Virus record (IMG/VR): IMGVR_UViG_3300050138_000644
Coordinates: 1-20,925 of that record
Length of the DNA stretch: 20,925 bases
DNA from: a virus
Direction: 5' to 3' (one strand)
In this document: positions 8,632 through 18,070 of the stretch, piece by piece
Layout: each line of letters opens with the position of its first letter
Numbering within the stretch: the stretch's first letter is position 1
The notes under the pieces: generated by a model
Told to the model about the DNA's origin: nothing
What the model saw: the letters and a program-made list of their open reading frames with translations, nothing else
Databases searched by the model: none
Translations under genes and position numbers: made by a program

Positions 8632-9231
8632 GTGGGTCTCGACGTCCACCTTGGCCCAGGCTCTGGCCTTAGCGAGGAGGCACAGTCTGCGCTGTCGGTG
8701 CCGCTCGGGCCCAGCTCAGGGCTAAGCTCCACGCTCTACGGGCTCGCCGCCCCCGCCGCCTCTGGAGAGGTCTTCACGGGCACCGGAGCGTCCCGCCTGG
8801 GCGCCCTGCGCTCGGCCGGCATCGGCGCGGAAGTCTTCACGGGCACCGGAGCGTCCCGCCTGGGCGCCCTGCGCTCGGCCGGCATCGGCGCGGAAGTCTT
8901 CACGGGCACCGGAGCGTCCCGCCTGGGCGCCCTGCGCTCGGCCGGCATCGGCGCGGAAGTCTTCACGGGCACCGGAGCGTCCCGCCTGGGCGCCCTGCGC
9001 TCGGCCGGCATCGGCGCGGAAGTCTTCACGGGTACGGGAGCCTCGCGTCTCGGGACGCTCCGATCCCTCGGTACGGGCCCCCTCGTAGGCGGCGCACCGC
9101 CTCCGTTCATCCCCCCGTTCTTCCCGCCGGTCTCCTTCCGGCCACCCACGCAACCGATTCGGCTCCTCCCCACCTGGAGGCCGCCCCTCAACCCCATCCA
9201 GGTGACCGTCCCGTGGCGCCCGAAGCGGTGA
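8632..9231 (+). CDS. Tandem-repeat protein with proline-rich tail, unknown function
   Basis: A 199-residue protein with a GTG start six bases after the previous stop. Residues 1-45 are Gly/Ser/Leu-rich. Residues 46-150 are five consecutive 21-residue repeats (consensus EVFTGTGASRLGALRSAGIG plus A), the first four identical at protein level, the fifth diverged. Residues 151-199 are Pro-rich with aromatic and basic residues (PPPFIPPFFPPVSFRPP; ends WRPKR). There is no signal peptide and no known domain. The repeat with periodic GTG and hydrophobic positions could fold as a beta solenoid or collagen-like fibrous rod; this is speculation. The frame is supported by its fit to both flanking genes and by the good ribosome site of the next gene inside its stop. 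Confidence 0.65.
   Translation: MGLDVHLGPGSGLSEEAQSALSVPLGPSSGLSSTLYGLAAPAASGEVFTGTGASRLGALRSAGIGAEVFTGTGASRLGALRSAGIGAEVFTGTGASRLGALRSAGIGAEVFTGTGASRLGALRSAGIGAEVFTGTGASRLGTLRSLGTGPLVGGAPPPFIPPFFPPVSFRPPTQPIRLLPTWRPPLNPIQVTVPWRPKR
8767..9081 (+). repeat. 63-bp tandem repeat, five units
   Basis: Units start at 8767, 8830, 8893, 8956 and 9019. Units 1-4 are identical in nucleotide sequence except that unit 1 begins GAG and units 2-4 begin GAA. Unit 5 keeps the coding pattern but differs at many third positions. Near-perfect identity including silent sites means the array expanded recently, or was copied by recombination or slippage; copy number may vary between isolates and may be miscounted in assembly. 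Confidence 0.97.
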
Positions 9232-10289: not shown

Positions 10290-11861
10290 ATGCCCCTTGA
10301 CACCCTGCCGGCCCTTCTCGTAGTCGCCTCACGCGACTCGCTCAAGGCGAAGTGGTTGACATGGGTAAAAGTGCGCAATCCCGCGGCCGATGGGCGACCG
10401 GGTACGCAGGTCGACCAGGACGGATCGGTCTGGGCGGACGCGGGATCGCTCCTCATCTCGAAGGCGGTCATCCTCTCGAACGGCATCAGCCCCTCGACCG
10501 CCGCGGGAAGCCTTCTCGACTCGTGGATGACCCGTCGCGGGACGCGGAGGCAGGGCGCCGTCGGGGCCGGGGGCGCCGTCAGCGTTCAGACCTCAAGCAA
10601 CGGCACGACGCTGAAGGCCGGGGACATCCTCACGCACATCCCGAGCGGCCAGCAGTACCAGGTCCTCACCGGCGGCATCTACACGAACGGTCAGGCGGTC
10701 CCCGTCGTCGGACTCTCGACCGGACCGCAGACCGACCAGCCCGCGGGCACGGTCCTCACCTGGCTCTCCCCCCGCCAGGGCGTCACGAGCTCGAACGCAG
10801 TCGTCGTCGCCCAGGCCAACGGGTCCGGCCTCGACGGGGGCACCGGACCCGAGACCGACGACGCAGGACAGGCGCGACTGCAGCTCCTGGCGAACAATCC
10901 CGCGGCGTCCGGCAACGACGGCGAGCTGCAGCAGTTTCTCTCGCAGCTGAACGACATCGCGGTCGAGCAGGGCTTCACTTACCCGGGGATCATGGGGCCC
11001 GGCACGACCGGGATCACCTTCACGTTGCGGCCCGGCGTTCCAGGGGCGAGCCGCATCCCGACCCCGACGCAGCTCGCCCTCGCGCTCTCCGAGCTCGCCG
11101 GGTCCTTCCCGGGCGACGACGGCATCTACATGTGCGCGATCGTCGCGAACCCCGTCACCGTCGTCCTCAAGGTGACCTGGGCGCAGGCCGCGTACGCCTG
11201 GGCTGACGCGACGACGTTCCCGCTCTACCACCCGAGCCCGAATCTCGTGTCGGCCGCGGCCAACGCGGGCGGCGTTCTCTCGCCCACGGCCTTCCGCGTC
11301 ACCTCGACCTCCATGTCGGAGGTGCCCCAGGTGGGGCAGAGCATCGCCTTCTTCGATCTCGCGAACCTCGTCTTTCGACGGAAGAAGATCCTGACGGTCA
11401 CGGTCATCTCGGCCACGGCCTGCGATCTGACCGTCGACCTCGCGAGCGGCGTCTCGGACGGGAGCTACACGCCCATCTCGGGGCAGCCGTGCTGCCCGTG
11501 GAGTGACAGCCTCAACTCGGTCGTCACGCCGCTCGTCACGTACTTCTCGAAGCTCGGGCCAGGCGAGCAGGTCGCGAGCTTCTTCGACCCAGGCCTCCGC
11601 CAGCGTCGCAGTCCCACGAGCCCGCAGGTGTGGCCCAACCAGATCACCAACCGCCTCCTCGGTGGCGCTCCGGTGCCCGTGCCGGCCGCCGGCCCCCAGC
11701 AGAACCAGCCCCCCGTGCCGACGCTCTTCTCGACCGCGACCCTCTACGACGTCGAGCTCATCGAGCCGGCGACGCTGCCCTACGCGACGCCTACGGGAAC
11801 GCCGGGAGTCAGCAGCTACTTGAACACGATCGGGCCAGCGCTCGTCGTCTTCCCGGAGTGA
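10290..11861 (+). CDS. Baseplate J-like wedge protein (Mu gp47 type)
   Basis: A 523-residue protein, longer than Mu gp47 (about 360-380 residues). The N-terminal 200 residues contain the region preceding the usual turn (ISPSTAAGSLLDSWMTRRGT; a beta domain with LKAGDILTHIPSG). Near residue 190-235 there is the family-like Gly/Asp stretch leading to ELQQFLSQLNDIAVEQGFTY, then PGIMGPGTTGITFTLRPG, corresponding to the 'YP...GTV' core of baseplate J. The C-terminal 200 residues hold a beta insertion with a CCPW motif and a Pro/Gln-rich linker before the end. Its role is to connect wedges to the hub and pass on the contraction signal. The start has only a weak ribosome site. Confidence 0.8.
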   Translation: MPLDTLPALLVVASRDSLKAKWLTWVKVRNPAADGRPGTQVDQDGSVWADAGSLLISKAVILSNGISPSTAAGSLLDSWMTRRGTRRQGAVGAGGAVSVQTSSNGTTLKAGDILTHIPSGQQYQVLTGGIYTNGQAVPVVGLSTGPQTDQPAGTVLTWLSPRQGVTSSNAVVVAQANGSGLDGGTGPETDDAGQARLQLLANNPAASGNDGELQQFLSQLNDIAVEQGFTYPGIMGPGTTGITFTLRPGVPGASRIPTPTQLALALSELAGSFPGDDGIYMCAIVANPVTVVLKVTWAQAAYAWADATTFPLYHPSPNLVSAAANAGGVLSPTAFRVTSTSMSEVPQVGQSIAFFDLANLVFRRKKILTVTVISATACDLTVDLASGVSDGSYTPISGQPCCPWSDSLNSVVTPLVTYFSKLGPGEQVASFFDPGLRQRRSPTSPQVWPNQITNRLLGGAPVPVPAAGPQQNQPPVPTLFSTATLYDVELIEPATLPYATPTGTPGVSSYLNTIGPALVVFPE

Positions 11862-11865
11862 CAAG

Positions 11866-12393
11866 ATGCCTGGATCGAGCTCCGCACCCAACCGGTCGAC
11901 GCTGGACGGCAACCCCCAGCTCGGCATCACGCAGGGGTATCGTCCGACGCTCGCCGACGGCGGAGCGATCCTCGTCGACGACACGGAGAACCCGCCCGAT
12001 CCGGAGACGATGCCGGTCTCCTTCGCCTGGAACTATTTCTCCGCCATGCTGGCGAGCGTCGGGCGCATGATCGCCGTCGCCAACTTCGGGCTCACCGCCG
12101 GCGTGAGCCCGGTCTTCCCATTCTGGCAAACAGGCGCCAACCTCATCGAGAACAACCCATTCAGCGTGTACTCGCGAGTCGGCGCGGGGCACTACCAGAT
12201 CCAGTGGGTCTCGGGGACCTTTCCGCTCATCGGGGCGCCCAAGGGCTACCTGAACTGCACGGGCGGCGCCCACTCGTACTGCATCACGTGCCAGTACATG
12301 GCGGCGCCGCCGGCGGGGAAAGCGGCGGTCGAGGTGTGGACAACGACCGACGGTGCCCTCGCGGACCTGCCGTTTCAGATCGACCTCTACTGA
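11866..12393 (+). CDS. Unrecognised protein between gp47-like and gp48-like wedge genes
   Basis: A 175-residue protein starting four bases after the baseplate J stop. The N-terminal 45 residues are extended and polar (GITQGYRPTLADGGAILVDD). The middle has a helix (FAWNYFSAMLASVGRMIAVA) and the C-terminal 100 residues are beta-rich with strands such as YSRVGAGHYQIQWVSGTFPL and three cysteines in NCTGGAHSYCITC, which could form a bridge. The end resembles a compact receptor-type beta domain, but I recognise no family. Position within the wedge operon suggests a baseplate component or tip protein. Confidence 0.75.
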   Translation: MPGSSSAPNRSTLDGNPQLGITQGYRPTLADGGAILVDDTENPPDPETMPVSFAWNYFSAMLASVGRMIAVANFGLTAGVSPVFPFWQTGANLIENNPFSVYSRVGAGHYQIQWVSGTFPLIGAPKGYLNCTGGAHSYCITCQYMAAPPAGKAAVEVWTTTDGALADLPFQIDLY

Positions 12394-12397
12394 TCCC

Positions 12398-13618
12398 GTG
12401 CCGAAGTTCTCCTGCTTCACGCCGCTCGGCCAGCTCGCGATGTCGAGCAAGCCATCCAAGGTGCAACAGTGGTACGCGCTCCTGCCCACCCTCTGGGGTC
12501 GAGGCATCGACTTCACGGTAGTCGGCTCCTACGACGAATCTCGCTTGTACGCCGCGTCGCGGATGATGGCCCTCGCGGAGATCGAGCTCGAGCACGCCTA
12601 CAACCAGTGCGACCCGCTGAAGATCTACGACCTCCTGCCACTGGCGGAGCTCGACTACCTGCTCACACCGGGGCCGAAGGACACGGTCGGGACGAGGCAG
12701 GCGGCGCTCGCGGCGGCCGAGCTCCTGCCCCTCGGGGCGGGCGCGAGCAACGTCGTCAACGCCCTGAAGACGCTGCTGGGCGCGTCGTTTCTCGCCTACG
12801 TCCCCAACCCCGCCGGGACGCCGACGGTGTACCCATCGAATCCAGCGACGGGCGGAGGCAACTGGCCGGACGTGCGGAGGCCCGCGAAGTTCCTGCAGCT
12901 CGTCGATCCGGTCGCGACGCTCGGGACCTTCTGGTGCGCCTACCAGGCCATCGACACGAGCGCGCTCCTCAACGTCTCGACGTGGAGCGCGGCGACGAGC
13001 TACTCGGCTTCGACCGCCACGTCGCCTGCCCAGCGGGTCCTTCCGACCACAATCAACGCGAACGGCTACTACTTCACCTGTACGACGGGGGGAGTGACGG
13101 GGGCGACCGAGCCCGCATGGGTGGCCGAGGTCGGGGCCAGCGTGGTGGACGGTGGGGTCACGTGGATTTGTGCATCGCCTATTGCGCCGGCGCTCGTCGT
13201 CGGGGACAAGGTCTGCGTCGACGCGGGCAACACGTCACAGCAGGAGGTCGTCACCGTCACGGTCGTGGCCAACGTGGCTCCGATGGGCGGGAACGCGACG
13301 CCAGGGTACCTCTACTTTCATGCCGCGTTTACCAAGAGCCATGACGTGGGGGCGACCGTGACGACGGGGCAGCAACCGTACTGGTGGAGCACTCAGCGCT
13401 TGAACCTCGTCGTGCTCGCAGCCGCTCCCTCGGTGGATCGGCCGACACGAGCGCGGGTGGACACGGTCATGGCGAAGATCCTCCGGGTGGTCTCGCAGTG
13501 GGCGATCGTGCAGCCGGCGTCGACCACGGCGAACGGCGGGACCGTGGGACCACTGACCGTCGGGAGCCCCATGGGGACGACGACGATCGGGGCGACGACG
13601 TACACCAACTCCAACTGA
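12398..13618 (+). CDS. Baseplate wedge protein, Mu gp48-like, carrying an inserted module
   Basis: A 406-residue protein, about twice the length of Mu gp48. I chose the GTG at 12398 (M/V-PKFSCFTPLG), five bases after the previous stop, over an ATG at 12353 inside the previous gene. Residues 1-130 hold the family-like start: LLPTLWGRGIDF, a long helix with AEIELEHAYNQCDPLKIYDL, the loop LLTPGPKDT, and helix ALAAAELLPLG. After NALKTLLGASFLAYVPNP come beta strands. Residues 196-260 are an inserted module also found in the tip proteins downstream. The C-terminus (MAKILRVVSQWAIVQ, then VGPLTVGSPMGTTTIG) resembles the family's end. Gp48-type proteins attach fibres to the wedge. Confidence 0.72.
   Translation: MPKFSCFTPLGQLAMSSKPSKVQQWYALLPTLWGRGIDFTVVGSYDESRLYAASRMMALAEIELEHAYNQCDPLKIYDLLPLAELDYLLTPGPKDTVGTRQAALAAAELLPLGAGASNVVNALKTLLGASFLAYVPNPAGTPTVYPSNPATGGGNWPDVRRPAKFLQLVDPVATLGTFWCAYQAIDTSALLNVSTWSAATSYSASTATSPAQRVLPTTINANGYYFTCTTGGVTGATEPAWVAEVGASVVDGGVTWICASPIAPALVVGDKVCVDAGNTSQQEVVTVTVVANVAPMGGNATPGYLYFHAAFTKSHDVGATVTTGQQPYWWSTQRLNLVVLAAAPSVDRPTRARVDTVMAKILRVVSQWAIVQPASTTANGGTVGPLTVGSPMGTTTIGATTYTNSN
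12983..13177 (+). repeat. Copy A of a shared ~60-residue protein module (in gp48-like protein)
   Basis: Residues 196-260 follow a pattern W-x(4)-Y ... NGYYF ... GGVTGATEPAW ... VG.SVVDGGVTWICAS. The same pattern occurs at 13764-13940, 14934-15131 and 16733-16918. Similarity is at protein level, not nucleotide level, so copies are old. It probably folds as a small beta domain; carbohydrate binding is a guess. Confidence 0.75.
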
Positions 13619-13628
13619 GGACGGGAAA

Positions 13629-15272
13629 TTGAGTCACAACGCCCTCGTCCGAAACCCCGTCACCCTCTGGACGAACGGCTCGACCATCCTCAGCGCCGAG
13701 CTCACGACCCTCGACGCGAACCTCACGTCCTGCGTCAGCGCGGGCGATCTGGGGGCGACGGTCTGGATCGCGTCGAAGGTCTTCGCCCTCGGCGCCCTGG
13801 TTGTCCCGCTGGCGAACAACGGCTACGTCTACGTCGCCTCGGCCATCACGACGGGCGTCAGCAATAGCTCGGCGCCGGTGTGGCCACTCGCCATCGAGGG
13901 GAGCGTCGTCGACTCCGGGGTGACCTGGACGTGCACGTCGACCGTGGCTGGCCTTCCGACCACAAGCGGCGGTGGATGCTGGGCGCCGGCGGGCCTCATC
14001 ACGATCTCCGGCGCCGGCCTCCGCTGCGACGGCCCCCTCCTCATCACGCGCGGAGGGGTCCTCAACTGCGCCCAGGGGTACATCCAGCTCGACGCGCCGT
14101 CGTCCCAGAAGCTCGGGCCCACGCACTCCGGGAGGACCCGCAAGATCGTCCAGGCGTTCGCGGAGGGGGCGACCGTGCCCCGCGCGATGTGGCGACCCCG
14201 TCGAGACACGGGCGGCATGCAGTCGCTGTCTCCGATGTACCAGCTCTGGAACGCAGCGAACCCCGCGCCTGCCGTCCTGGGCTTGCCCATCCGAGGATAT
14301 CAGGGAGCGACGCTCTCGAGCGTGACGGTGGGGTTTCGGGTCGCGACGCCGCATACGACGCTCCCGACGAAGATGCCGGCCTTCCGGATGCTCCGCGTCG
14401 GCTCGGACGGGACCTCCGTCGCAATGACGTCGATCGCCGCAGGCGCGGACGCCCTGGGGTTCGTCTACGTGACGAAGCCCGCCTCCACGGATGCCTGGTA
14501 CAACAACGGACTCGGGCAGTCCTTCACGTTCACGTGCGACATCAGTAACGTGATTGACCGGACTCAATACACCTACCTGCTCGAGGTGCAAGAGGAGCAA
14601 GGGCTGACGGGGTACCCGTGGGTCACGCAGATCATGCAGCCGGTGCTGGCGCTGGCCTATGGGATCGGAACGCTCACCGGGCTGACGGCCTTCGATGGCA
14701 TTACGCCGGTGGACGGGTCGCGGATCCTCGCTCTGGACGGTTCGGAGAACGGCATCTACATCGCTCACTCTGGAGCGTGGACGAAGGCGAACGATCTCTC
14801 GCAGGCGTCGCAGTTCTACCAGGGGTTCATCGTAGGAGTGCAGCAAGGTCTCTTCTACGGGGGGACCTACTGGCAGCCGTCGACGAACACCGCGACGTGG
14901 CAGTCAGGAACGACGCCTCCGGGGACAGCGGTGTGGTCGGCGGTGACTGGGTACTTGGCCAACGACGTGGCTGTGCCATCGTCCGCGCGCTTCAACGGGT
15001 ACTGGTTTCAGGTCGCGTCGATTCTTGGCTCAGGGACCTCTGGAGGCACCGAGCCGTCGTGGCCGAGTACCGTGGGCGCGACTGTGATCGACAATCCGGG
15101 CGCCAACCAGGTGGTCTGGAAATGCACGGGCCCTACGTCGACGCCGCTCACCTTCTACACGCGGCCCAACGGGGACACGGCTCAAGCCGGCGCGGCGCTT
15201 CTCGCGGCGGGCAACGTCTTTCACGCCGCGGCCCTCACGTATACGAACATCCAGACGCTGGCGTTTCAGTAG
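13629..15272 (+). CDS. Tail-tip/fibre protein, paralogue 1, with two shared modules
   Basis: A 547-residue protein. The start is TTG at 13629, supported by GAGGACGG at 13617-13624, just inside the previous stop. Domain order: N-terminal attachment region (1-45), shared module copy B (46-104), a motif GGCWAPAGLITISGAG (about 115-130), a beta-rich domain (about 180-330) with YQGATLSSVTVGFRV and NVIDRTQYTYLLEV, a central stretch with YIAHSGAWTKANDLSQASQF resembling a surface-facing binding domain, module copy C (436-501), and a final beta strand set. The two genes after it share the GGxW and beta-domain patterns, so the three are paralogues. Position after gp48 is where tail fibre genes lie. Receptor binding is inferred. 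Confidence 0.72.
   Translation: MSHNALVRNPVTLWTNGSTILSAELTTLDANLTSCVSAGDLGATVWIASKVFALGALVVPLANNGYVYVASAITTGVSNSSAPVWPLAIEGSVVDSGVTWTCTSTVAGLPTTSGGGCWAPAGLITISGAGLRCDGPLLITRGGVLNCAQGYIQLDAPSSQKLGPTHSGRTRKIVQAFAEGATVPRAMWRPRRDTGGMQSLSPMYQLWNAANPAPAVLGLPIRGYQGATLSSVTVGFRVATPHTTLPTKMPAFRMLRVGSDGTSVAMTSIAAGADALGFVYVTKPASTDAWYNNGLGQSFTFTCDISNVIDRTQYTYLLEVQEEQGLTGYPWVTQIMQPVLALAYGIGTLTGLTAFDGITPVDGSRILALDGSENGIYIAHSGAWTKANDLSQASQFYQGFIVGVQQGLFYGGTYWQPSTNTATWQSGTTPPGTAVWSAVTGYLANDVAVPSSARFNGYWFQVASILGSGTSGGTEPSWPSTVGATVIDNPGANQVVWKCTGPTSTPLTFYTRPNGDTAQAGAALLAAGNVFHAAALTYTNIQTLAFQ
13764..13940 (+). repeat. Copy B of the shared protein module
   Basis: Residues 46-104 of the 13629-15272 product: starts at W46, contains NNGYVYVASAITTG, SSAPVWPLAIEGSVVD and ends SGVTWTCTS. 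It is the shortest copy and lies N-terminal to the main beta domain. Confidence 0.75.
14934..15131 (+). repeat. Copy C of the shared protein module
   Basis: Residues 436-501 of the 13629-15272 product: starts VWSAVTGYLANDVAVP, contains FNGYWFQV, SGGTEPSWPSTVGATVID and ends VVWKCTG, with a short insertion (NPGANQ) before the last strand. It lies C-terminal to the main beta domain. Confidence 0.78.
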
Positions 15273-15281
15273 GGGCGGGCG

Positions 15282-16223
15282 ATGCACAATACGTTCATCC
15301 GTCCTTCAGGACAGTGGCCCGCGGAGTTCGTTCCGGGCGCGACCGACGCCCAGCTTGCCGACGTGGCGCAGTTCCAGGGACTCAACGGTGACACCGGCGT
15401 TCACGGCGTCCGGATCAACCCCGACTCCTTCTACGGCCAGGCCGTGCCTCTCCCTGCTGGATACTGGAGCACGCTCGACACGGCGCAGGCGGGACTCGTC
15501 AACGGGGACGCTGGCAATGGGACGTGGAGCCCGGCGAAGCAGATCGTCATCGGCGGCGCGGGGATGTGGTGCGCTGGTCCCTGGACCTTCGGGGCGCCAT
15601 ACCTCATGGCGCTCTGCACGAGCGCCTTCCCGCTGACCTTCGGTGACAACGACTACACGCTCCTCGGCAGTGGCCACGCCACGGCGTCGCGGGATCTCGT
15701 GACCGCGTGCAACCTCGGGACGGACATCTCGGGGGCCGTCAGCGGCGGCATAGCGGTCATGATGTCGGACTTCGCCTCGGGCGGAGGGGCCATCAACTTC
15801 GCGGGATCGCCGTTCCGGGGTGGGGGGCGGCTGCTCGTCCCGCTCCGCGTACACCACGGGGCGACGTTCCAGTACGTCCGGTTCTACTTCAACATCATCA
15901 CGGGGCACGCGGGCATCCCGGCGATCCTCCCATTCTTCCGGGCGTATGCCGTCGACATCCTCGGCAACGTCGCGCCGCTCAACACGAGCACGGGGCAGGT
16001 CGGCGGAGGCTTCATGTCGCTGGGCACGCCCGCGAACGTCACGACCTACGAGAATACGGCGGAGTTTCTCTATCCGACGGACGCGGGGACGGTCGTGGAC
16101 TGCACCCGGTTCACCTACTTCGCGGAGATCGTCGACGAGGGCGGCGCCAACGCCCTGAACGGCAACACGTGGCTCGACATCGTCTCCGAGATGCGGGACA
16201 TCCCTGACATGAGGCCGAGCTGA
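15282..16223 (+). CDS. Tail-tip/fibre protein, paralogue 2
   Basis: A 313-residue protein whose ATG follows AGGGG at 15271-15275. The N-terminus (MHNTFIRPSGQWPAEFVPG) and DVAQFQGLNGDTG form a probable attachment part. The motif GTWSPAKQIVIGGAGMW (about 80-96) and the beta domain (about 185-313; HHGATFQYVRFYFNI, TVVDCTRFTYFAEI) match the preceding and following genes. Unlike them it carries no copy of the shared WTC module, so it shows the plain architecture. Similar three-part proteins with a GGTW.P motif occur, as far as I recall, in other phages from delta-proteobacterial lineages. The stop overlaps the next start (TGATG). Confidence 0.72.
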   Translation: MHNTFIRPSGQWPAEFVPGATDAQLADVAQFQGLNGDTGVHGVRINPDSFYGQAVPLPAGYWSTLDTAQAGLVNGDAGNGTWSPAKQIVIGGAGMWCAGPWTFGAPYLMALCTSAFPLTFGDNDYTLLGSGHATASRDLVTACNLGTDISGAVSGGIAVMMSDFASGGGAINFAGSPFRGGGRLLVPLRVHHGATFQYVRFYFNIITGHAGIPAILPFFRAYAVDILGNVAPLNTSTGQVGGGFMSLGTPANVTTYENTAEFLYPTDAGTVVDCTRFTYFAEIVDEGGANALNGNTWLDIVSEMRDIPDMRPS

Positions 16224-17188
16224 TGTCTGGCGGACCTGGACCCGCACCCACGGGCGGCTGGACCCCTCGAACCCCGATCATCCTCGGCGGGAGCGGCGTC
16301 ACCTTCGGATCGAACGGCACGCTCTTCGACGGCGGCATTGCCACGAAGCAGGGTGGCCGGCTGAGCCTCACCGCCGGCTACGGCAACGTCCCCGCCTTCA
16401 CGACGCCCGTGACCGACACGATCGTGGTCCCGGCCCTCGCGATGCACGTACCGGACACGGCGCCTGCGTCGATGCTCGGAGACGACCTCTTCTCGATCGT
16501 CGGACCGCCGTTCCCCGTCGGCCTGCAGACGGCCCTCGCGTCGGCCGCGTACCTGGAGATCCCGTCCCGCTACCTCCACCAGGGCGCCTACCTCAACAAG
16601 ATGCTGCTGCGGTTCCGGGTGGTGGTCAACCCGGGCGCGGTGCCCGCGATCCCGCTCTCCTTCACGCTCAACGCGTGGAACCTTGCGAGCACGGCGCAAG
16701 AGACGATCGGGCCGACGTCCACGATGAGCAAGTGGCTCGGGACGCACTCGTACCCGACCGGCTCGTACATGATCCCGGACCCGGCCTACACGCCGATTAC
16801 TGGGTATTTCTACAAGGCCACGACGGGCGGGACGTCGGGATCGGTGACCGCCAACATCTGGCCCGTCGTCATCGGCCAGACCTACGTGGATGGCAGCGTC
16901 ACCTGGACGTGCTGGGGCAAGAGCGGACAGCTCCCGAACATGACCGGGTGGGTCGCCACGACCGCGACGATGCTCACGCCCGCCCAGTACTTCGCGGCGG
17001 GCGCCGTGCAGACGCTCGAGCTCGACTTCGACCAGACCCTGAACAACACCATCGACCACACGGCCTACCGGTACGTCCTCAGCATTTCGGGGGCGGCCGA
17101 CGTCTCGACGGCGTTCCCTCAGCTGAACCTGATCCTCCACTCGGTGGAGATCGACATGGTGAACATCCTCGACACGAGGTTCGAGTAG
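16223..17188 (+). CDS. Tail-tip/fibre protein, paralogue 3, with nested module
   Basis: A 321-residue protein, coupled to the previous gene by TGATG (16221-16225). The N-terminus lacks the attachment part of its paralogues and starts almost directly with GGWTPRTPIILGGSG. The beta domain begins at HQGAYLNKMLLRFRV (about 119) and resumes with VQTLELDFDQTLNNTIDHTA and YRYVLSI (about 265-290); between them lies the shared module (171-232), inserted in the loop where paralogue 2 has only a short Thr/Gly-rich connection. Its stop at 17188 is one base from the stop of the reverse-strand gene, so this is the last gene of the + strand tail block before the island. Confidence 0.72.
   Translation: MSGGPGPAPTGGWTPRTPIILGGSGVTFGSNGTLFDGGIATKQGGRLSLTAGYGNVPAFTTPVTDTIVVPALAMHVPDTAPASMLGDDLFSIVGPPFPVGLQTALASAAYLEIPSRYLHQGAYLNKMLLRFRVVVNPGAVPAIPLSFTLNAWNLASTAQETIGPTSTMSKWLGTHSYPTGSYMIPDPAYTPITGYFYKATTGGTSGSVTANIWPVVIGQTYVDGSVTWTCWGKSGQLPNMTGWVATTATMLTPAQYFAAGAVQTLELDFDQTLNNTIDHTAYRYVLSISGAADVSTAFPQLNLILHSVEIDMVNILDTRFE
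16733..16918 (+). repeat. Copy D of the shared protein module, nested in a beta domain
   Basis: Residues 171-232 of the 16223-17188 product: WLGTHSYPTGSYMIPDP, ITGYFYKATTGGTSG, ANIWPVVIGQTYVDG, SVTWTCWG. It matches copies A-C in order and spacing and is the only copy placed inside the tip-protein beta domain. Confidence 0.75.
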
Positions 17189-17189
17189 G

Positions 17190-17765
17190 TCATGGGCCCT
17201 GCACCGAGGAGCAGGACGGGCTGTAACCCAGAACGCCCCCGTCCGCGGCCGTAACGACGCATTCGACCCACGCGGCCTGGTTCGACGTAGAGACCGACCA
17301 CGGACACAGGCCAACCACTGGCGGCGGCGGATCCGTCGACACGCACCGCACGGGCGGCCCATTGGCCTGGAGCATCGTCACGGTGTAGGGGCCGGCGGCT
17401 GCGCGCGCGGCCTGCTGGGCTGGCGAGCCGATCGTGTCGCTCGCGGCCCACCACCCGAGTCCGCATCCGAAAGGAACCTCCACCGCCTCCAGCGACCCCG
17501 TGTAGGTGCCGGTCGTGCAGAGGATGAACTCTGCTGGCAGCGCGGCGTCGACGCTGGCCTCTATCCCGACACCAGCATCTACGGAGGCCTCGGCCGATCC
17601 ATCAGCCAACGGGCCCGCGTCGCTCTGCCCGGCACCGTCGCCATGGCCGAGGCTGTCCGCAGCCGCGTCGCCGAGTGGGGCACCGGAGGCCGCCTCGAAC
17701 GCGCTCCCACCGCACCCAAGGACGGCAGTCAGGGCGAAGCCGAGAAGGCGAGCTGTACTGTTCAT
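17190..17765 (-). CDS. Reverse-strand secreted lipoprotein (moron candidate)
   Basis: A 191-residue protein read right to left. I chose the ATG at 17765 (MNSTARLLGFALTAVLGC) because it gives a classical lipoprotein signal: basic residue, hydrophobic stretch and lipobox VLG-C with Cys18; an earlier TTG at 17846 would bury it. After the cysteine comes a long Asp/Ala/Gly-rich spacer (about 30-75, e.g. DAGPLADGSAEASVDAG), a hallmark of myxobacterial lipoproteins, then a Cys-rich domain (FGCGLGWW, PPVRCVSTDPPPPVVGLCPW, a late SPSCSSVQG) with probable disulfides. I recognise no family. The gene is on the opposite strand to all structural genes and ends tail-to-tail with one base between stops. It is probably expressed independently, from a promoter I cannot identify. 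Serum-type conversion, exclusion or an envelope role are guesses. Confidence 0.65.
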   Translation of the reverse strand: MNSTARLLGFALTAVLGCGGSAFEAASGAPLGDAAADSLGHGDGAGQSDAGPLADGSAEASVDAGVGIEASVDAALPAEFILCTTGTYTGSLEAVEVPFGCGLGWWAASDTIGSPAQQAARAAAGPYTVTMLQANGPPVRCVSTDPPPPVVGLCPWSVSTSNQAAWVECVVTAADGGVLGYSPSCSSVQGP

Positions 17766-18070
17766 CTTCTGAACCTGACCACTGCCCGGACAGTTCGCAA
17801 GGGGGCGCATCTCCCCCAACGCTACCCCGTCCCGCCTGGAGTGCAAGGACCAACACGAGTCGCTCTCGGTACCATCGCAACACTTCCCGTCCGGGTCTCC
17901 GTCGTCGGAACCGCGATCGCCGTGGGCTCACCGCCCGACGCGTGACCGCCGCAGGCTCGCATCACGACCCCGCAAGCCACGAGCATCCCGAGTCCGGCGC
18001 AGCCCATGCCCGTTCTCCGCATCTCCTGAACGTACCACGGGCGCCTGTGCGCGCCTGCGAGGCCCCCCCG
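17766..18070. other. Divergent region between reverse lipoprotein and + strand operon
   Basis: About 305 bases between the start of the reverse lipoprotein and the start at 18071. It must hold the promoter for the reverse gene, and perhaps one for the + strand, but I find no clear -35/-10 pair, operator or terminator. It contains a doubtful small reverse ORF (17822-18022). A second reverse frame is also open here, continuous with the lipoprotein frame, reading a Cys/Asp-rich stretch (DDGDPDGKCCDGTESDSCW) without an ATG or GTG start; this may be decayed coding sequence. Confidence 0.4.
17822..18022 (-). CDS. Candidate small lipoprotein, possibly a broken gene
   Basis: A 66-residue reading frame starting MRRTGMGCAGLGMLVAC: two arginines, a short hydrophobic stretch and a canonical lipobox LVA-C with Cys17. 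AGGAG stands directly against the ATG, too close for a good ribosome site. Codon third positions look coding in the first half (GC-rich) but not in the second half, where the neighbouring reverse frame looks better. So the N-terminal part may be real and the rest out of frame, i.e. a frameshift remnant of a longer lipoprotein. It could also be chance. Confidence 0.3.
   Translation of the reverse strand: MRRTGMGCAGLGMLVACGVVMRACGGHASGGEPTAIAVPTTETRTGSVAMVPRATRVGPCTPGGTG

Follow-up and report, generated by a model that had tools for sequence, protein, structure and literature searches.

What is the segment of about 65 residues that recurs four times, in frame, among the baseplate genes of a phage, and what could it do in the three different proteins that carry it? 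The question is raised by IMG/VR virus record IMGVR_UViG_3300050138_000644, which was analysed in its entirety (20,925 bases with a guanine plus cytosine (GC) content of 68%; hereafter the window) and which probably comes, as a fragment, from a phage with a contractile tail. The four segments are spread over three of the five same-direction genes that follow a Baseplate_J gene (Table 1). An initial annotation, made from the sequence without database searches, took them for a self-contained domain moving between virion proteins, perhaps for weak surface binding by multivalency. We find that they belong to one family of mobile virion domains, the N-terminal half of which is related to the carbohydrate-binding module (CBM) family CBM5/12. 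The reading we favour, with a probability of roughly 0.6, is that the module is a mobile, CBM5/12-derived accessory decoration for weak multivalent surface binding.

The module is 58-75 residues long and occurs exactly four times in the window, with boundaries (Table 1) that improve on those first annotated. The four copies align as one family with the common pattern W..A.t.Y..G..V.P....NGY.Y..tt.GtSG.tEP.WP...G.TV.DG.VTWTC, in which W, P, GY, G, W, D and V-x-W-x-C are invariant; the hairpin of copy 3 is longer by four residues (NPGANQ). In leave-one-out searches, where a hidden Markov model was built from three copies and used to look for the fourth, the true copies were recovered with E values of 7.6e-10 to 2.8e-13, compared with 0.017 for the best reversed or wrong-frame decoy. 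A profile built from other viruses alone and run on the window in six frames also retrieved all four, far below the decoys, and found no fifth copy, with nothing else below 0.17. The segments are thus a single module, as had been proposed, and its placement does vary with the host protein, being internal in the wedge-like protein and tip protein C, and near the N terminus and near the C terminus in tip protein B. It had been foreseen that a profile match might reflect only low complexity, i.e. a resemblance of Gly/Thr/Val-rich beta sequences without homology, and the segments are indeed small and rich in Gly and Thr. However, both types of profile beat the decoys by many orders of magnitude, and this, together with the same fold and PDB match for two divergent copies (see below), refutes low complexity or chance, to which we assign next to no probability. 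The copies are old or diverged: they are 60-68% identical as DNA, and so are not a recent DNA repeat, and their GC content is 0.64-0.69, compared with 0.68 for the window. Coupling of C38 and C68 as a disulphide is not clear from their co-occurrence (both 35, C68 alone 55, C38 alone 6, neither 12).

AlphaFold2 models of copy 1 (predicted local distance difference test (pLDDT) 92, predicted template-modelling (TM) score 0.80) and of the divergent copy 3 (94.5 and 0.83) have an identical strand order and one short helix turn, and the module is accordingly predicted to be an autonomous, mostly beta domain; the inputs were alignments of relatives that share many rows, so the two runs are not fully independent. 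Different folds, which would have spoken against a single module, were therefore not found for these two copies. Both also retrieve, with Foldseek, the tailspike of cyanophage Pam1 (7EEA; probability 1.00 and TM 0.61-0.66 for copy 1, probability 0.99 for copy 3), which is the sole confident PDB match of either. The larger of our sequence profiles (A7) independently finds residues 492-547 of the 7EEA chain (E = 0.001); the smaller profile A2, made from 15 diverse copies, gave only chance matches when compared by sequence with solved structures. Residues ~492-547 of Pam1 gp17 are the one solved member of the module family, and form one internal part of that spike. A beta-helix and a distal beta-sandwich of the Pam1 spike are proposed to recognise polysaccharide, in a passage that does not single out the segment ~492-547 (PMC9382816). 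Against BFVD, Foldseek returned dozens of phage structural proteins, among them baseplate wedge proteins, a P22 gp10-like protein, a major tail protein and spikes of the pectate-lyase type.

Comparison of orthologues shows that the module moves: at fixed sites it is gained, lost or duplicated in tandem. Two related loci, L017 and L100, have no module at the site in the wedge-like protein (flanks 52-54% identical, gap of 3-6 residues); the window has one copy there, and L109 has two in tandem. The preceding protein, encoded from position 11866, lacks the module in the window and in L017 and carries one in L109. In a nozzle-like protein (L137:3738-6047 vs L055:7633-end), flanks that are 89% and 84% identical enclose a 66-residue module in L137 and three codons (~3 residues) in L055, and the same kind of difference separates the adaptors of L055 and L128, with flanks 73% and 92% identical. 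The nearest non-identical relative sits in a non-homologous host protein for 108 of 191 copies, with the proviso that module sequences are short and single nearest-neighbour assignments uncertain, and one contig has modules 80% identical in two genes unrelated by BLASTP. In the window the NPGANQ hairpin is that of protein B's C-terminal module and in L017 it is found in protein C, which fits exchange between sites. Some orthologues thus have the module and others lack it, and it also occurs in virion proteins that are not homologous to one another, as is typical of promiscuous virion accessory domains; the filled and empty sites, the unrelated hosts and the fold common to two copies together uphold the idea of a self-contained domain moving between virion proteins. 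An old duplication in one tail lineage, inherited vertically without transfer, would explain why the modules of tip proteins B and C occupy matching places in L017 and why host flanks and modules have diverged to a similar degree. It does not explain a wedge site with zero, one or two copies, close relatives whose sites are empty, or the non-homologous hosts in many phages; as a full account it is refuted by the filled and empty sites (wedge, L137/L055 and adaptor), and we find it barely credible. A DNA-level repeat or transposon was likewise rejected, since no DNA repeat joins the copies, their DNA identity is low, and the L137/L055 site shows no evident duplication of a target.

Across 153 loci we found 194 module copies in 172 open reading frames (ORFs; 131 non-redundant), with host-protein frequencies biased by sampling through patterns centred on EP-x-WP and VDG-x-VTW. 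Copies are internal in 126 of the 139 that could be classified, and there are ten tandem pairs. The carriers include major capsid proteins (phrog_212, phrog_10, Phage_capsid and the SU10 major capsid protein) and head closure proteins (Hc3/P22 gp10-like), as well as the SU10-type adaptor, nozzle, tail sheath (phrog_165), tail tube, minor tail protein L, gene transfer agent-type hub and gpJ. Spikes and fibres that carry it bear beta-helix, GDSL lipase, hyaluronidase, F5/8-C, laminin-G or PKD domains. When sought in unrelated phage genes the module is thus present in non-homologous capsid, neck, tail and spike proteins; in a 138-kb relative, all ten copies lie within 85-108 kb, its tail-gene stretch. 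In two divergent tail sheaths of phrog_165 (L004:4008-5783 and L105:3918-6062), the places of the module coincide on the sheath profile, at about position 206-210.

That the module lacks a named family, as the initial annotation put it, is true of Pfam; PHROGs, however, captures it in phrog_20658 (PHROGs v4, “head decoration”, 211 positions), and it has the distant CBM5/12 kinship discussed below. All 15 diverse copies and 108 of 125 host proteins match phrog_20658, at positions ~120-199 only, with the first ~120 unmatched. The three module-carrying window proteins also match it in the module region alone (E = 4.5e-8, 3.3e-13 and 5e-4), and as they sit in a tail/baseplate block beside Baseplate_J, they are not identified as head decoration proteins. 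Sheath, wedge, capsid and spike proteins score against a “head decoration” PHROG because they carry the module, and this is an annotation trap in which the label of phrog_20658 is transferred wrongly to tail proteins. In Brevibacillus phage Sundance, a “putative head decoration protein” with the module (L192:1590-2477) is flanked by lytic transglycosylase, YomH-like and minor structural genes, in a tail region; the label of the PHROG itself may be wrong. No description of the module as a family was found in the open-access full-text literature, a scope that makes this absence weak evidence.

The module is enriched in viruses and rare in prokaryote genomes. In IMG/VR, one profile confirmed 359 of at least 600 pattern matches as relatives and another confirmed 372 of 468, compared with 4 of 55 in a scan of prokaryotes (84,980 species, one genome each), a contrast that is approximate as the patterns used for viruses and prokaryotes differed slightly. 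In samples from two prokaryote phyla, 3 of 195 and 13 of 198 genomes were positive, and the genes around the positive copies, where classified, include major head, minor tail and tape-measure families. The module is also present in cultured phages, for instance Microbacterium phage Araxxi, Glutamicibacter phage Voltaire and Caulobacter phage phiCbK. The hosts of such phages are Caulobacter, Brevundimonas, Gordonia, Microbacterium, Glutamicibacter, Staphylococcus, Xanthomonas, Alteromonas, Brevibacillus, Psychrobacillus, a cyanobacterium and others, and thus comprise Gram-positive and Gram-negative bacteria as well as cyanobacteria.

Judged by profile comparison, the N-terminal half of the module is significantly related to CBM5/12 (PF02839; ChiA1 domain 1ED7), and the C-terminal half differs. 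The N-terminal CBM5/12 signature W-x(5)-Y-x2-G-x2-V...G-x2-Y is present in the module as W-x5-Y-xx-G(D)-x-V...NG-xx-Y. In hhalign the module aligns to solved CBM5/12 domains with 88% and a score of 29.9, compared with at most 15.3 in 100 column shuffles, and Pfam reports CBM_5_12 for 31 of 108 members (best 2e-6), the relative L120 reaching 28.0 bits, above the curated cut-off of 26.2, and other relatives 12-23. Compared with CBM5/12, the module is longer (58-75 vs ~45 residues), has another C-terminal half, and is carried by virions rather than chitinases. It is probably descended from a sugar-binding module.

We propose that tailed phages paste the module into almost any virion protein, at positions that tolerate it and are probably exposed. 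The module would have descended from CBM5/12, or from a common ancestor, with its C-terminal half rebuilt (EP-x-WP...G-x-TV-x-DG-x-VTWTC), and would spread by in-frame recombination or duplication, being tolerated because it folds by itself. If exposed in the phage of the window too, each module would contribute one weak contact, of low specificity, with glycans of the cell surface or matrix, and such contacts could combine into avidity during the reversible step with which adsorption begins; each particle has many copies of its sheath, capsid, wedge and tip proteins, so that the contacts would be multiplied. Promiscuous virion domains as such are familiar. The Ig-like domains of phages, reported by Fraser et al. 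in 2006, are said to be optional, promiscuous and found on many virion proteins; they follow the same logic with another fold and sequence. No member of the A7 alignment matched an Ig family, antibody matches of copy 3 in Foldseek had a probability of at most 0.05, and there was no confident Ig match. Domain shuffling is also established in phage receptor and baseplate proteins (PMC10684548). The nearest tested analogue is found in lactococcal 936 phages, in which CBMs decorate the neck, major tail and Dit proteins, fusions to GFP bind host cells, and avidity has been proposed; these CBMs are BppA-like, of another family than the module, and are described there in one phage group (PMC6669499). 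The link to CBM5/12 and the CBM-decorated 936 phages make weak surface binding by multivalency plausible by analogy.

Several observations weigh against a CBM5/12-derived adhesive module. The likeness spans only ~30 N-terminal columns and ends after the NG-xx-Y strand; copies 1, 2 and 3, each scanned alone, had no CBM_5_12 match in Pfam, nor had the whole window proteins at E ≤ 1, so that the window does not reach the curated cut-off. The ligand-binding tryptophan in the C-terminal half of ChiA1, which we take to be W687, is without counterpart in a simple alignment, and the profile alignment stops short of it; the column preceding EP is Ser or Thr, and a conserved Trp comes after, in EP-x-W. 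Chitin-active matches of copy 3 in Foldseek (chitin deacetylases and Serratia chitinase B, which bear CBM5/12) are weak, with probabilities of 0.12-0.20 among the top eight. Given a likeness limited to the first half, a second half of its own and a binding Trp without an aligned partner, we refer to the module as CBM5/12-related and not as a member of CBM5/12. It might only stabilise or space. A purely structural mobile insert, such as a cement-like stabiliser or spacer in sheath, capsid and baseplate, or a neutral loop insertion, with no ligand in either case, is the main rival, and would account for modules in parts with no adhesive role (major capsid, head closure, adaptor and sheath) and for conserved residues (W, Y, G, P-x-WP, D and W) that could all belong to the core. 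Close virion relatives manage without the module, as a neutral insertion would allow; gain and loss between flanks 84-89% identical also suggests that it is dispensable for assembly, which counts against a structural part. CBM5/12 ancestry and the frequent company of the module, in spikes and fibres, with beta-helix, lipase, hyaluronidase, F5/8-C or laminin-G domains likewise speak against a structural insert, which we judge unlikely. Less likely still, and by some way, is that each copy is a specific receptor-binding domain for one defined host receptor, with loop variation tuning host range: the loops between P and NGY and at the GANQ hairpin do vary, and tip and spike proteins do carry modules, but the same module occurs on capsids, neck and sheath, its relatives span the three kinds of host named above, and its body is strongly conserved.

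Weak multivalent binding by a CBM5/12-derived decoration remains the reading we prefer. A wider version of it, at somewhat less than even odds, is that the module forms a phage-specific general adhesive family on every exterior layer (capsid, neck, sheath, tube, baseplate and spikes), derived from CBM5/12 and rebuilt, and thus an unrecognised second “Ig-like” system. If so, the whole particle, and not the tip alone, could engage the cell or the biofilm matrix. Beside the Ig-like domains and lactococcal CBMs, this module stands out in having no Pfam family of its own and in occurring on more virion components than expected, among them head-tail connectors as well as capsids and sheaths, in phages whose hosts differ widely. 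Proteins with zero, one or two copies, and flanks 84-89% identical with and without the module, are natural experiments on its role.

Table 1. Module copies, their host genes and neighbouring features in the window (aa, amino acids).
Feature	Position	Strand	Remarks
Baseplate J-like protein	10290..11861	+	PF04865 E 1.7e-16, phrog_6; anchors gene-block identity
Neighbour protein, 175 aa, without module	11866..12393	+	L109 orthologue has inserted module
Baseplate wedge-like protein, 406 aa, one module mid-protein	12398..13618	+	ORF 12353-13618, GTG start
Module copy 1, internal in wedge-like protein	12968..13186	+	leave-one-out E 2.8e-13; relatives-only profile 3e-19
Tip protein B, 547 aa, TTG start, two modules and second promiscuous decoration-type domain	13629..15272	+	
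Module copy 2, near N terminus of tip protein B	13749..13949	+	leave-one-out E 3.6e-11; relatives-only profile 5.8e-20
Second widespread virion domain GL..DG..GSRIL..NGIY..W, distinct from module	14664..14915	+	PHROGs 16867, 27782, 11518, 2647 and others
Module copy 3, near C terminus of tip protein B	14919..15140	+	leave-one-out E 3e-11; relatives-only profile 2.4e-18
Tip paralogue without module	15282..16223	+	27% identical to protein B core, E 1e-15; unfilled paralogue
Tip protein C, 321 aa, one internal module	16223..17188	+	
Module copy 4, internal in tip protein C	16718..16927	+	leave-one-out E 7.6e-10; relatives-only profile 4.8e-17

The start of the wedge-like protein was set by comparison with orthologues. 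Its description as gp48-like agrees with the gene order after Baseplate_J and with a general resemblance, but has no support from PHROG profiles or from Pfam, where the protein had no match. Tip protein B, whose L017 orthologue is 50% identical and has both modules, is a mosaic built from two promiscuous virion domains; a scan with the whole protein as query gave no match. The second domain, between its two modules, matches PDB 9nx3, a “capsid decoration protein” (E = 3e-4), and is also found on head decoration, tail fibre and virion proteins. As the 9nx3 match covers this neighbouring domain instead of the module, 9nx3 was rejected as a module relative.

Elsewhere among the tail genes, a protein of 199 residues contains EVFTGTGASRLGALRSAGIGA repeats, encoded by a nearly perfect 63-base tandem repeat at 8770-9041 (4.3 copies, 99%). 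Downstream of tip protein C, a long ORF on the minus strand (17190-17846) is opposed to the tail genes; its product is lipoprotein-like (CGGS..., Asp/Ala/Gly-rich) in a Myxococcota-type style, and from its sequence it is possibly a host-derived or lysogeny gene that hints at the host.

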